Assembly: GCF_003367905.1 (NCBI RefSeq)
Contig: NZ_CP029462.1
Location: forward strand, 2,232,001-2,296,000
Source of the DNA: Megasphaera stantonii
Lineage (GTDB): Bacteria > Bacillota > Negativicutes > Veillonellales > Megasphaeraceae
Length of the DNA stretch: 64,000 bases
Reading direction: 5' to 3'
A model generated the notes under the pieces. It did no database searches, was not told the origin of the DNA, and saw only the letters and a list, made by a program, of their open reading frames with translations. A program made the position numbers and the translations under genes. Below, one piece after another: positions 2 through 3,428 of this stretch (position 1 is the first letter of the stretch; every line of letters starts with the position of its first letter).

Positions 2-1654
2 TACGGCGAAGAAGCCCTGTATGTTCTGACAGAGGAGCCGTACCGCATGATTGCCGAAATAGACGGCATCGGCTTTAAAACGGCCGACCAGATTGCCTTG
101 GCGTACGGCATGGACCCGCAGTCGCCGGAGCGGCTGGCGGCGGGCTTGACGTATGTCCTTCAAGACATGACACAGAACGGCCACGTATGTATTCCCGATA
201 GGGAGCTCGTCTACCGGGCGTCCCTCATCTTGCGGGCGGAACAGCTGATGCTGCGGGATGTGCTGACTGAAGCGCTCGCCATGGGGCAGCTTTGTGCCGA
301 TGACTACGGCGGCGAGACCTATGTGTATACGCTGCAGGCCTATGAAGAAGAACGGGGCGTTGCCGAGCGGATACGGGAAATGGCCGCGTATACGCCGCCT
401 AAGCCGCGGCGGCATGTGGAATTGTTTTTAGACCGCTGGCAGGAGTCGTGCCAGTTCCAGCTGGCCGAGGGGCAGCGCGAAGCCGTATCCCAATCCCTGC
501 AGTCGGGAATGCTGGTCATTACCGGCGGCCCGGGGACCGGCAAGACGACGGTCGTGCAGGCAATCATCCGCCTGGCCGAGCAGGAAGGGCTGCGCATCGT
601 CTTGTGCGCGCCTACGGGGCGGGCGGCGAAGCGCCTGGCCGAAACGACGGAGCGCAAGGCTAAGACGATTCACCGCCTTCTCGTGCCGGAAGGCTTTGCC
701 GGCGGCCGACAGGTCTTCGAATACAACGAAACGAAGCAGCTGCCCGCCGATTTGGTCATCGTCGACGAAGTTTCCATGCTGGATATGGAAATGCTGTATC
801 ACTTGCTGCAGGCACTGAGCCCGCGCTGCCGGTGCATCCTCGTCGGCGACGCCGATCAGCTGCCGTCGGTCGGAGCCGGCGCCGTCCTTCACGATATTAT
901 TCAGTCCGAAATACTCCCCGTCGTGCGGCTGCAGACGATTTTCCGCCAAAAAGAAGGGGGCCGCATCGTGACGAACGCCCATCTCATCAACGGCGGCCGC
1001 CTGCCCGTAGTCAATGAAGACGAGGAATTCCGCTTTGTGGAAATTGAACGGGAAGAGCAGGGAGCGGACGTGATCTGCCGGCTGTACGCGGCAGAAACGG
1101 CGGAGGCCGGCGACAAGTTCGCCGTACAGGTGCTGTCGCCGATGTATAAAAATCCCTGCGGCGTCGACAACTTAAACGCCGTCATCCAGTCCGCCGTCAA
1201 CGGGCCCCAAAAAGGAAAAGGCGAGCATAAGGCGGGAAAGGTGACCTTCCGTACAGGCGATAAGGTCATGCAGAAGCAGAACAACTATGACAAGGGCGTA
1301 TTTAACGGCGACATCGGTGAGATTTTTGCCGTGCAGGACGACATCGTGTACGTGCGCTATCCGGAGCAGGACATCAAGTACGAAGGGCAGGAAATCGATG
1401 AAATTACCCTGGCCTATGCCATAACGGTTCATAAGAGCCAGGGGAGCGAGTACCATACGGTTATCATGACGCTCGTCAACAGCCATGGCATCATGCTGCA
1501 GCGGAACTTGCTGTATACGGCGGTTACGAGGGCCAAGGGCAAGGTCATCCTTGTCGGTACGAAAGCGGCCCTGCGCACGGCCGTTCAAAACGTGCGGACG
1601 AGCCGGCGTTTTACCTTGCTGGCTCAGCGGCTGAGGGAGGAAGAAATATGCTGA
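2..1654 (+). CDS. recD2: RecD2-type ATP-dependent DNA helicase (5' end cut by window)
   Basis: This is the C-terminal three quarters of a RecD2/TraA-family 5'-3' superfamily 1B DNA helicase; full-length members are about 740 residues, so some 190 are missing. The frame is already open at base 2 and continues without a start codon, so the real start lies left of the window. The visible part begins in the helix-hairpin-helix region (DGIGFKTAD near bases 62-88). It then shows Walker A (GGPGTGKTT, bases 524-550), Walker B (DEVSML, about 764-781) and the C-terminal VHKSQGSEY motif near base 1430. RecD2 acts in DNA repair and recombination without RecBC. Its stop overlaps the comF start by seven bases, so the two are probably co-transcribed and translationally coupled. 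Confidence 0.95.
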   Translation, partial: YGEEALYVLTEEPYRMIAEIDGIGFKTADQIALAYGMDPQSPERLAAGLTYVLQDMTQNGHVCIPDRELVYRASLILRAEQLMLRDVLTEALAMGQLCADDYGGETYVYTLQAYEEERGVAERIREMAAYTPPKPRRHVELFLDRWQESCQFQLAEGQREAVSQSLQSGMLVITGGPGTGKTTVVQAIIRLAEQEGLRIVLCAPTGRAAKRLAETTERKAKTIHRLLVPEGFAGGRQVFEYNETKQLPADLVIVDEVSMLDMEMLYHLLQALSPRCRCILVGDADQLPSVGAGAVLHDIIQSEILPVVRLQTIFRQKEGGRIVTNAHLINGGRLPVVNEDEEFRFVEIEREEQGADVICRLYAAETAEAGDKFAVQVLSPMYKNPCGVDNLNAVIQSAVNGPQKGKGEHKAGKVTFRTGDKVMQKQNNYDKGVFNGDIGEIFAVQDDIVYVRYPEQDIKYEGQEIDEITLAYAITVHKSQGSEYHTVIMTLVNSHGIMLQRNLLYTAVTRAKGKVILVGTKAALRTAVQNVRTSRRFTLLAQRLREEEIC

Positions 1655-2289
1655 AGGAATGGCTGCTGAACCTGTTGTATCCGCCGCGCTGTCCTGGCTG
1701 CGGCGCTGCCGTAAGCCGTCATGGCCAATGGTGCTCTTCCTGTTTCGGGGCAGTCTGGCGTCCGCGCCGGCTCGCGCGGAAACGGGAAAGCCGCCTGACC
1801 GCCTGTTACTGCCTGTGCGATTACCGCGGGCCTGTCCGGACGATGCTGCAGCGGCTTAAATATGACGGGGCCGTGCGCTACGAACAGGCTGCGGAAGAGC
1901 TGCTGACGCAGTTTCCCTGGCCGGAGCGGCTGGGGCATATCGACTGCGTCGTGCCGGTGCCCCTGGTTCCAGAAAAAGAGCGCAAGCGGGGGTTCAACCA
2001 GTCGGAAGTATTGTTCCGCTCCTGGGCGGAACGGCGCTGGCCATGGAAAGACGGCCTGCAACGCGTCCGTTCGACTCAGGCCCAGTGGCATCTGGACAAG
2101 GCGGACCGTGCTGACAACGTAAAACGAGCCTTTGAAGTCAAAGGCTCGTTTGAGGTACGGGGAAAGCATATTCTGTTGGTCGACGACATTTATACGACGG
2201 GGACGACGATGGAAGCCTGCGCCTACGCGCTGCACAAAAAAGGCGCTGCCAGCGTGACGGGGTTCGTCGTTGCCAGCGGCACCTTATAA
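1648..2289 (+). CDS. comF: ComF family phosphoribosyltransferase-like protein
   Basis: The 213-residue product has the ComF layout: an N-terminal zinc ribbon (CPGCG near residue 14 and a second CxxC about 15 residues on) followed by a type I phosphoribosyltransferase fold with the PRPP-binding stretch LLVDDIYTTGTT near residue 175. ComF is needed for DNA uptake during transformation in several Firmicutes and interacts with the DprA/PriA machinery; the substrate of its transferase-like domain is not settled. The start overlaps the recD2 stop, and the pair of a helicase and a DNA-uptake factor suggests a DNA-processing unit. It ends tail-to-tail with the downstream minus-strand gene, sharing six bases, with no terminator hairpin between them. 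Confidence 0.9.
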   Translation: MLKEWLLNLLYPPRCPGCGAAVSRHGQWCSSCFGAVWRPRRLARKRESRLTACYCLCDYRGPVRTMLQRLKYDGAVRYEQAAEELLTQFPWPERLGHIDCVVPVPLVPEKERKRGFNQSEVLFRSWAERRWPWKDGLQRVRSTQAQWHLDKADRADNVKRAFEVKGSFEVRGKHILLVDDIYTTGTTMEACAYALHKKGAASVTGFVVASGTL

Positions 2290-2901
2290 TTGACCTAACG
2301 TTTCAATAAATGCCTTGACGACTTCCGGGTCGAAGAGAATGCCTGAAGCGCTGAACATTTCGCGGACGGCCTGCTGCTTCGTCTTGGCCCAGAGCTCTGT
2401 CGACGGGTTGATGATGCGGTCGTAATAGTCTGCGACCGCGATGATGCGGGCGCCGAAGGGAATATTGGCCCCGCGCAGGTGCTTGGGAAATCCCGAGCCG
2501 TCCCACCGTTCGTGGTGATAGCGGATATACGGCACGATATCCTGACAGCAGGGAATGTTTTCCAGCATGTTGCCGCCCGCCGCGGCGTGGCGCTTGTACT
2601 GGGCGTTTTCCCGGCGGTTGAGATAGGGGATTTTTGCCAGCAGCGTATTGGAAACGAAGAGAAGGCCGACGTCGTGCAGAAGGGCTGCGTGCTTGATCTG
2701 CTCAATTTCACTTTTGGGAAGAGCCAGCTTGGCGGCGATGCTGACGCTGTAGTTGGCAACCTGAAGGGAGTGCATATACAGCCGTTGGTTCTTCAGTTGT
2801 ATGAATTTGAGCAGCTCCGCCGTAATCGTGTCGAGGGAATTCATTTCCTCTATCCCGATGCCGGCGGCCTGTTTCAGCGATACCATGTACATGACGGACA
2901 A
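2284..2901 (-). CDS. Stand-alone HD-GYP-like phosphohydrolase
   Basis: The 205-residue protein carries an HD signature (HAALLHDVG near residue 85) and, further on, HHERWDGSGFP, which is the HD-GYP signature with Phe in place of Tyr. HD-GYP proteins hydrolyse cyclic di-GMP or related cyclic dinucleotides in the cytosol. There is no receiver or sensor domain, only a short N-terminal helix-rich segment, so how activity would be controlled is not visible. The longest frame starts at a TTG with a GAAAGG site just upstream; in-frame ATGs at about 2892 and 2886 are alternatives. It lies 20 bases downstream of the SpeD-like gene on the same strand and is likely co-transcribed with it. The family is clear; the substrate is inference. 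Confidence 0.8.
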   Translation of the reverse strand: MSVMYMVSLKQAAGIGIEEMNSLDTITAELLKFIQLKNQRLYMHSLQVANYSVSIAAKLALPKSEIEQIKHAALLHDVGLLFVSNTLLAKIPYLNRRENAQYKRHAAAGGNMLENIPCCQDIVPYIRYHHERWDGSGFPKHLRGANIPFGARIIAVADYYDRIINPSTELWAKTKQQAVREMFSASGILFDPEVVKAFIETLGQL

Positions 2902-2921: not shown

Positions 2922-3428
2922 TTACTTCTTTTTTATGCGCCGGGAACGGCGCATTTTTTGCGGATGGCGCAGGATATTAAACATCCTGGCGCTCGTTTTT
3001 TTGATGCGAGAGCCCGTATTCTTCATGCGGCGGACCGTCGTAATCTTCGATTTGCGGGCAGGCCGCATGTCGCGGAGCGAGCCGAAGTCGCCGCGGCGGA
3101 TGCTCGTAGCTTTGATGCGGTCGGAGCCTAAGATGACCTTCAGCGTGCTCATGACGTGGCTGGCGTTGAGGTCGTTGTTGAAGCTGTAAATGTCGACGGC
3201 GACGTAAGCCAGCTGGGGATAAATGTGGATGCAGAGATGGGCGTTTTTCGACACGCCGATACAGACGAGCTCCTCCGCGTCGTCATGGTACAGCGTGATG
3301 CCCTCAATAGGCATGCCGACAGGCTCGAAGGCCTTTTTTACCAGATTCTGCAGCTCGTCGCTCGTCGTTAGTTCTGCCTTGCAGTTGTAAAAGTCTATCA
3401 GTAAATGTTTTCCTAATGTATTAGCCAT
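2922..3428 (-). CDS. S-adenosylmethionine decarboxylase-like protein lacking catalytic residues
   Basis: The first 115 residues align without gaps to bacterial AdoMet decarboxylase (SpeD/SpeH): the HLxIHxxP core is present as HLCIHIYP at residues 64-71. Active enzymes self-cleave at Glu62-Ser63, the Ser becoming the pyruvoyl cofactor, and use Cys83 as proton donor. Here the equivalent residues are Asn62, Ala63 and Phe83, so self-processing and decarboxylation should be impossible; His68 is kept. The last 50 or so residues form an added tail very rich in Arg and Lys. The protein is therefore more likely a structural or regulatory relative than an enzyme. The ATG at 3428 has a GGTGG site seven bases upstream and a good promoter behind it. 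Confidence 0.85.
   Translation of the reverse strand: MANTLGKHLLIDFYNCKAELTTSDELQNLVKKAFEPVGMPIEGITLYHDDAEELVCIGVSKNAHLCIHIYPQLAYVAVDIYSFNNDLNASHVMSTLKVILGSDRIKATSIRRGDFGSLRDMRPARKSKITTVRRMKNTGSRIKKTSARMFNILRHPQKMRRSRRIKKK

Follow-up and report, generated by a model that had tools for sequence, protein, structure and literature searches.

The gene at 2922..3428 of the window (the whole stretch of 64,000 nucleotides analysed here; minus strand, stop codon included, ATG start) encodes a tailed SpeD-like protein of 168 amino acids, which is almost certainly not a pyruvoyl decarboxylase. From comparison of its relatives we consider it very probable that binding which depends on the basic C-terminal tail is the conserved function of this protein. 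That the partner of the tail is nucleic acid is a more tentative proposal. Thus the protein may be a SpeD-derived pseudoenzyme of Negativicutes acting through its tail, with nucleic acid the target that we would name first, though we hold this whole reading with less than even confidence.

The SpeD-like core, its active-site positions and the tail

The SpeD-fold core (residues 4-116; 3081..3419, minus strand) is recognised by Pfam, by phmmer and in a structure model. Residues 8-113 align with the full Pfam profile of AdoMet_dc (PF02675; positions 1-107 of 107; 72.5 bits, E 4e-20), and the score against the NCBI equivalog TIGR03330, which describes the Bacillus-type enzyme, is 54.8 bits, below the cut-off of 75.65. 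The earlier note had placed Asn62-Ala63 where active enzymes have Glu-Ser and Phe83 where they have the catalytic Cys, with His68 and the core fold retained, and on each of these points we agree with it: phmmer aligns the processing Ser of the Thermotoga maritima AdoMetDC with Ala63, so that residues 62-64 (3237..3245, minus strand) read Asn-Ala-His at the Glu-Ser-His processing site; Phe83 (3180..3182, minus strand) stands in the position of the catalytic Cys83; and residue 68 is His. The alignment, which had been called gap-free, has a one-residue gap near residue 26 and none around the active site. The top phmmer match is 1tmi, which itself has Ala at the processing position and is titled 'S63A non-processing mutant'. 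Sequencing error as a cause of these changes was rejected, as the 16 genomes of the same (Megasphaera) family yield 14 distinct tailed sequences, none with Glu62 or Cys83. Without the serine that becomes the pyruvoyl group, the window protein cannot make the cofactor.

The tail proper (residues 117-168; 2925..3080, minus strand), delimited by composition, by a model of linker and tail and by the structure model, has 21 Lys/Arg and one Asp/Glu among its 52 residues, a net charge of +20, which bears out the earlier description of an Arg/Lys-rich tail of about 50 residues. The core is acidic, with 14 Asp/Glu against 10 Lys/Arg in residues 1-116. Across the junction runs a conserved linker, IKATSIRRGDFGSLRDMRPA (residues 105-124; 3057..3116, minus strand), which is marked out by conservation and by pN/pS. 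The protein has each of the features that define the tailed clade: Asp12, no Trp70, the linker RGDFG..DM[K/R]P and a basic tail. With class 1b SpeD (TIGR03330; T. maritima TM0655, 1tlu/1vr7/1tmi) it shares the fold, the core length, His64, His68, Asp79 and Arg112-Gly113, but it lacks Ser63 and Cys83, has Tyr for Trp70 and Asp12 for Glu, and adds the 52-residue basic tail.

An AlphaFold model, built from six sequences and with a pTM of 0.55, gives a fair core, with pLDDT values of 74-84 in ten-residue blocks from 11 to 100; residues 116-146 and 160-168 fall below 50 and a helix is predicted at 138-154, a tail structure which, in a model of this kind, is no evidence. Foldseek with the core model finds bacterial AdoMetDC first (E about 1e-7 to 2iii, 1vr7 and 1tmi), next human spermine synthase, and then human AdoMetDC and the trypanosome AdoMetDC/prozyme at E about 1e-3. 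Matches to ribosomal proteins are weak (E about 0.02) and are no evidence of function.

Conservation, spread and descent of the tailed family

From the fetched loci we assembled 148 distinct sequences, 126 tailed and 22 tail-less, excluding two fragments of a single frameshifted gene. The linker follows the pattern T-x-x-x-R-G-D-F-G-x-x-x-D-M-[K/R]-P, in which R112 and P123 are present in all 126 tailed sequences, T108 in 124, and D120 and G113 in 119 each. Within the core, Cys16 and Asp79 are each found in 125 tailed sequences, His64 in 123, His68 in 122 and Cys83 in 71; with His64, His68 and Cys83 retained to this extent, drift in the core is evidently restrained, and a chemical or ligand-related role may survive there. 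Position 12 is Asp in every tailed protein and Glu in every tail-less one, whereas Trp70 is in none of the tailed and in all 22 tail-less SpeD. Other positions invariant in the 22 tail-less proteins have drifted in the tailed set, which keeps Glu62 in 52, Glu72 in 55 and Phe49 in 32 of its members. Position 63 is Gly in 60, Ser in 38, Ala in nine, Cys in seven, Phe in six, Thr in five and Val in one; this rules out Ala63 as a signature of the clade, for which, along with the tail, it had been a candidate, and it is the linker RGDFG..DM[K/R]P and the tail that mark the clade. The Ser63-His68-Cys83 triad is complete in 22 tailed sequences and incomplete in 104.

Net charge across the tailed set averages +10.9 in the tail (range +6 to +21) and -3.8 in the core. 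Within the Megasphaera family (12 sequences) mean pN rises from 0.046 in residues 105-124 through 0.160 in 125-152 and 0.248 in 1-104 to 0.379 in 153-168; the linker has a pN/pS of 0.06, but pS is near saturation in every region of this set, so that only the comparison of pN counts. Constraint is strongest on the linker, then on the tail as far as residue 152, and residues 153-168 are the least constrained.

A homologue of the window protein is present in 58 of 60 genomes searched (the window genome included) and in all 52 of the near-complete ones. A family model built on a 14-row alignment has matches in 283 of 300 Negativicutes genomes, among them 223 of the 227 that are near-complete, and in 92 of 97 genera. 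Since the model also picks up tail-less SpeD, at about 1e-20, a few of the 283 could be tail-less; where four tail-less sequences of the class were read (L089-L092), each genome also carries a tailed one. Four of the 227 near-complete class genomes have no match to the family model, and G073, G152 and G200 have no AdoMet_dc protein whatsoever (among the 150 class genomes considered below), so the tailed protein is not indispensable. In one genome (G139, family f14) the tailed gene, L107, is split across two reading frames.

A search of 398 genomes from the phylum matched every one of the 14 Negativicutes across the tail, at E 2e-34 or better; the best match from elsewhere has E 4e-25, and among the matches listed the outsiders end at model position 125 or before, except for five whose alignments continue across stop codons. 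A model restricted to linker and tail, searched against 299 Bacillota genomes, finds one match in each of the 10 Negativicutes and, in the other 289, just two matches at E about 1e-3 with internal stops. The tail was not found on any other protein in these 299 genomes, nor on SpeD outside the Negativicutes. Viral contigs gave 25 pattern matches, of which none was confirmed as a relative, and plasmids gave four matches, all ending at query residue 113 or earlier, and no tailed relative. The class-wide matches and the linker-and-tail model together substantiate a real clade with a conserved basic tail.

A tree was computed for 108 tailed and 18 tail-less proteins from residues 4-124, leaving out positions 62, 63 and 83. 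A branch with an SH-aLRT of 100 separates the tailed proteins from the others, and the linker columns, being included, help to unite them. The triad needs eight changes on this tree; counted as losses only, these are one large loss that spans 81 tailed rows (among them Veillonellales f1-f4, f18 and the Selenomonas family f14) and seven smaller losses in f8, f12, f13, f26 (three) and f29, although, with few columns for 126 rows, many inner forks and the place of the triad losses are unsure. With the root placed between the tailed and the tail-less group, gain of the tail would come first, as all 22 triad-bearing members are tailed, and catalysis was probably lost repeatedly after that gain. Some tailed members may still be enzymes, since one of those with the triad scores 145.9 bits against TIGR03330 and so passes its cut-off. 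Thus the idea that this is a non-enzymatic branch suits the window protein, which has neither Ser63 nor Cys83, but does not extend to the whole clade, part of which keeps the triad.

Polyamine genes and gene neighbourhood

A second AdoMet_dc gene lies at C1:72134-72478 of the window genome, which is a single contig of 2.65 Mb. The product of this second gene, of 268 amino acids, scores 439 bits to the E. coli-type model TIGR03331 (cut-off 255.8) and reads DKSHLTVH...STCG, in which Ser, His and Cys are apparently present by eye; speE is also found. The search for an active speD, which the earlier note had proposed, thus turned up a separate, active-looking E. coli-type SpeD, and the cell does not have to rely on the window gene for this enzyme.

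Among 150 genomes of the class that are at least 95% complete, at least two AdoMet_dc matches occur in 110, one in 37 and none in three. Each of these 37 genomes matches the tailed model; none of them has an E. coli-type SpeD (the control search was positive in both of two genomes known to have one), and in the 26 whose tailed sequence was read there is no Ser63. The gene speE is absent from 19 of the 150, 18 of them among the 37; the remaining genome, G200, lacks AdoMet_dc. The tailed protein is the sole SpeD homologue in 37 of 150 genomes, 18 of these without speE, and its role is thus uncoupled from spermidine synthesis.

A different 19 of the 150 genomes have speE but, besides the tailed protein, no SpeD of either type to account for their decarboxylated AdoMet (for example G069, G089, G098, G116, G124, G137, G143, G193 and G001); in G073 and G152, both near-complete, speE is present and an AdoMet_dc protein, tailed or tail-less, is absent. 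In Veillonella parvula, Vpar_0438 is annotated as a SAM decarboxylase proenzyme and may be the tailed protein or a true SpeD; the accessible part of one study gives it a fold change of -18 on coaggregation with Streptococcus gordonii (PMC6529473).

Downstream of the window gene by 20 bp lies a gene for an HD-GYP-type phosphodiesterase (2284..2901, minus strand; HD_5 PF13487, 123 bits), with which it is probably co-transcribed. This pairing, to which the earlier note drew attention, is a trait of the Megasphaera family, where the HD-GYP gene directly follows the tailed gene in all 16 genomes (76-92% identity, leaving aside the window's copy). Among the remaining loci examined, often with no more than 1.5 kb of flank, none has it alongside. 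The operon was therefore set aside as a pointer to function: among the loci examined its linkage is confined to that family, and it is no guide to what is conserved. Within the family the HD-GYP protein varies less than the SpeD-like protein encoded beside it (57-72% identity). The HD-GYP protein of the window reads HHERWDGSGFP where the usual GYP form would be expected.

Longer flanks were available for 20 loci, two from f14, two from Veillonellales and 16 from other families, with f18 not included. In all 16 of the last group (L069-L078 and L080-L085) a flavodiiron gene (ODP plus flavodoxin) and/or an NMO/FabK-like gene lies divergently upstream; ctsR lies within 5 kb in 12 of them, and rubrerythrin or carbonic anhydrase is on the opposite side in 11. 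This oxygen and heat stress neighbourhood is absent from the two f14 and two Veillonellales loci, and no conserved operon partner was seen in the loci examined. Homologues of recD2 and/or comF lie near the tailed gene in the window (47-2289) and in L096-L099, L101, L104, L105 and L108, in an arrangement that differs between the Megasphaera family and the f18, f30 and f35 loci.

The proposed role of the tail and its possible partners

We propose that the acidic folded core, with its class 1b SpeD fold, would serve as a stable platform, presumably a dimer by homology, from which a flexible basic tail with a predicted amphipathic helix would fold upon a polyanion, for which RNA, the ribosome and DNA are the likeliest candidates. 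Nucleic acid is our first choice because of the high charge of the tail (+20 in the window protein) on an acidic core. The old pocket might still sense a ligand, the other role that the earlier note had suggested. A fuller history, which we offer as a speculation more doubtful than the choice of partner, is that a polyamine enzyme in the ancestor of the Negativicutes acquired a polycationic tail and with it an additional task on one of these nucleic acid partners. That task would then have become the conserved one, while the pyruvoyl site was discarded repeatedly, eight times on our tree.

The amphipathic pattern of the tail, which suits a membrane just as well, makes this the main rival partner: the tail would be a basic amphipathic anchor on the inner membrane or anionic lipid, while the core binds an envelope or polyamine-peptidoglycan partner. 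In tail helices such as PLRRVRNTGAKVLKFLSR, basic residues alternate with hydrophobic ones, and the hydrophobic moment of the tail has a median shuffle p of 0.04, falling below 0.05 in 52% of the 126 sequences. This reading is also favoured by the confinement of the family to the two-membraned Negativicutes, whose outer membrane is, in the accessible text of one report, tethered to polyamine-modified peptidoglycan (PMC10628300). We nevertheless think it unlikely, because the best 18-residue stretch of the tail has a low mean hydrophobicity (-0.31), 21 of the 52 residues of the window tail are Lys or Arg, and no envelope gene recurs nearby in the loci inspected, save mreBCD by eye in one Selenomonas locus (L079). 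Improbable to a greater degree is a part in stress proteolysis, as an adaptor or substrate whose Arg-rich tail is read by the McsB-ClpC system; the nearness of ctsR and of the flavodiiron and/or NMO/FabK-like genes in the 16 loci would fit this, as would mcsA and mcsB, recognisable by eye in L073, but the linkage is missing from the f14 and Veillonellales loci (f18 lying outside the 20-locus set) and the tailed gene is oriented away from the ctsR side.

If the protein were still an enzyme with another substrate or chemistry, the triad-bearing members would be pyruvoyl decarboxylases and the rest would work differently; the 22 intact triads, the one score above the TIGR03330 cut-off and the 19 genomes with speE and no other SpeD are in favour, but position 63 is Gly or Ala in 69 of the 126, neither of which can yield a pyruvoyl group, and Glu62, Glu72 and Phe49 have drifted where tail-less SpeD keeps them, which leaves this reading very unlikely. 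We give marginally less credit to a prozyme-like role, in which an inactive SpeD would bind the cell's active E. coli-type SpeD and control its activity. The window genome has a candidate partner, and speE, and the trypanosome prozyme is a precedent in the available portion of its report (PMC5201418), but the tail is left unexplained and the 37 genomes whose only SpeD is the tailed one hold no partner, which rejects this as the general role. Scarcely credible, finally, is a decaying remnant without function: the drift of position 63, the split L107 and the four near-complete genomes without a match are what decay would give, but 283 of 300 class genomes match and the linker and tail are strongly constrained.

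The window protein has partial counterparts among known proteins. The N-terminal domain of human spermine synthase (3c6k) is an inactive AdoMetDC fold without pyruvoyl chemistry of its own. The same holds for the trypanosome prozyme (PMC5201418) and, among the degraded SpeD domains of Lentisphaerota fusions, for the C-terminal SpeD of a Victivallis fusion, as far as the available parts of these sources go (PMC10407285). These proteins are partnered with, or fused to, an active polyamine enzyme, whereas the window-type protein is free-standing, tailed, nearly class-wide in Negativicutes and present where other SpeD is absent. Ornithine and arginine decarboxylases have also evolved from SpeD, and resemble our case in being SpeD homologues from genomes that either carry a normal SpeD as well or lack spermidine synthase; in the accessible text of that paper S63, H68 and C83 are essential for self-processing and expected to be conserved in these decarboxylases (PMC10407285), while the window protein lacks Ser63 and Cys83 and has a tail. 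The word 'Negativicutes' was not found in the text of PMC10407285. In the one open-access library searched, a scope that excludes most subscription journals, we found neither literature on a tailed SpeD clade nor a free-standing, tailed, nearly class-wide bacterial SpeD pseudoenzyme.

The name 'adenosylmethionine decarboxylase', which the Pfam match suggests, would be a misnomer for the window protein and for the majority of the tailed copies read (the 104 of 126 without a full triad), and such misnaming would mislead the reconstruction of polyamine pathways; the conserved tailed protein probably does a job other than polyamine chemistry. If our reading is true, the class presents a graded series from tailed intact enzyme to tailed pseudoenzyme, in which the tail is what persists, and this nearly universal protein of Negativicutes would be a testable case of an enzyme turned binding protein. 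On the fuller history offered above it would be an unrecognised housekeeping factor, and the intermediates that have both triad and tail would let the change from enzyme to binder be replayed.
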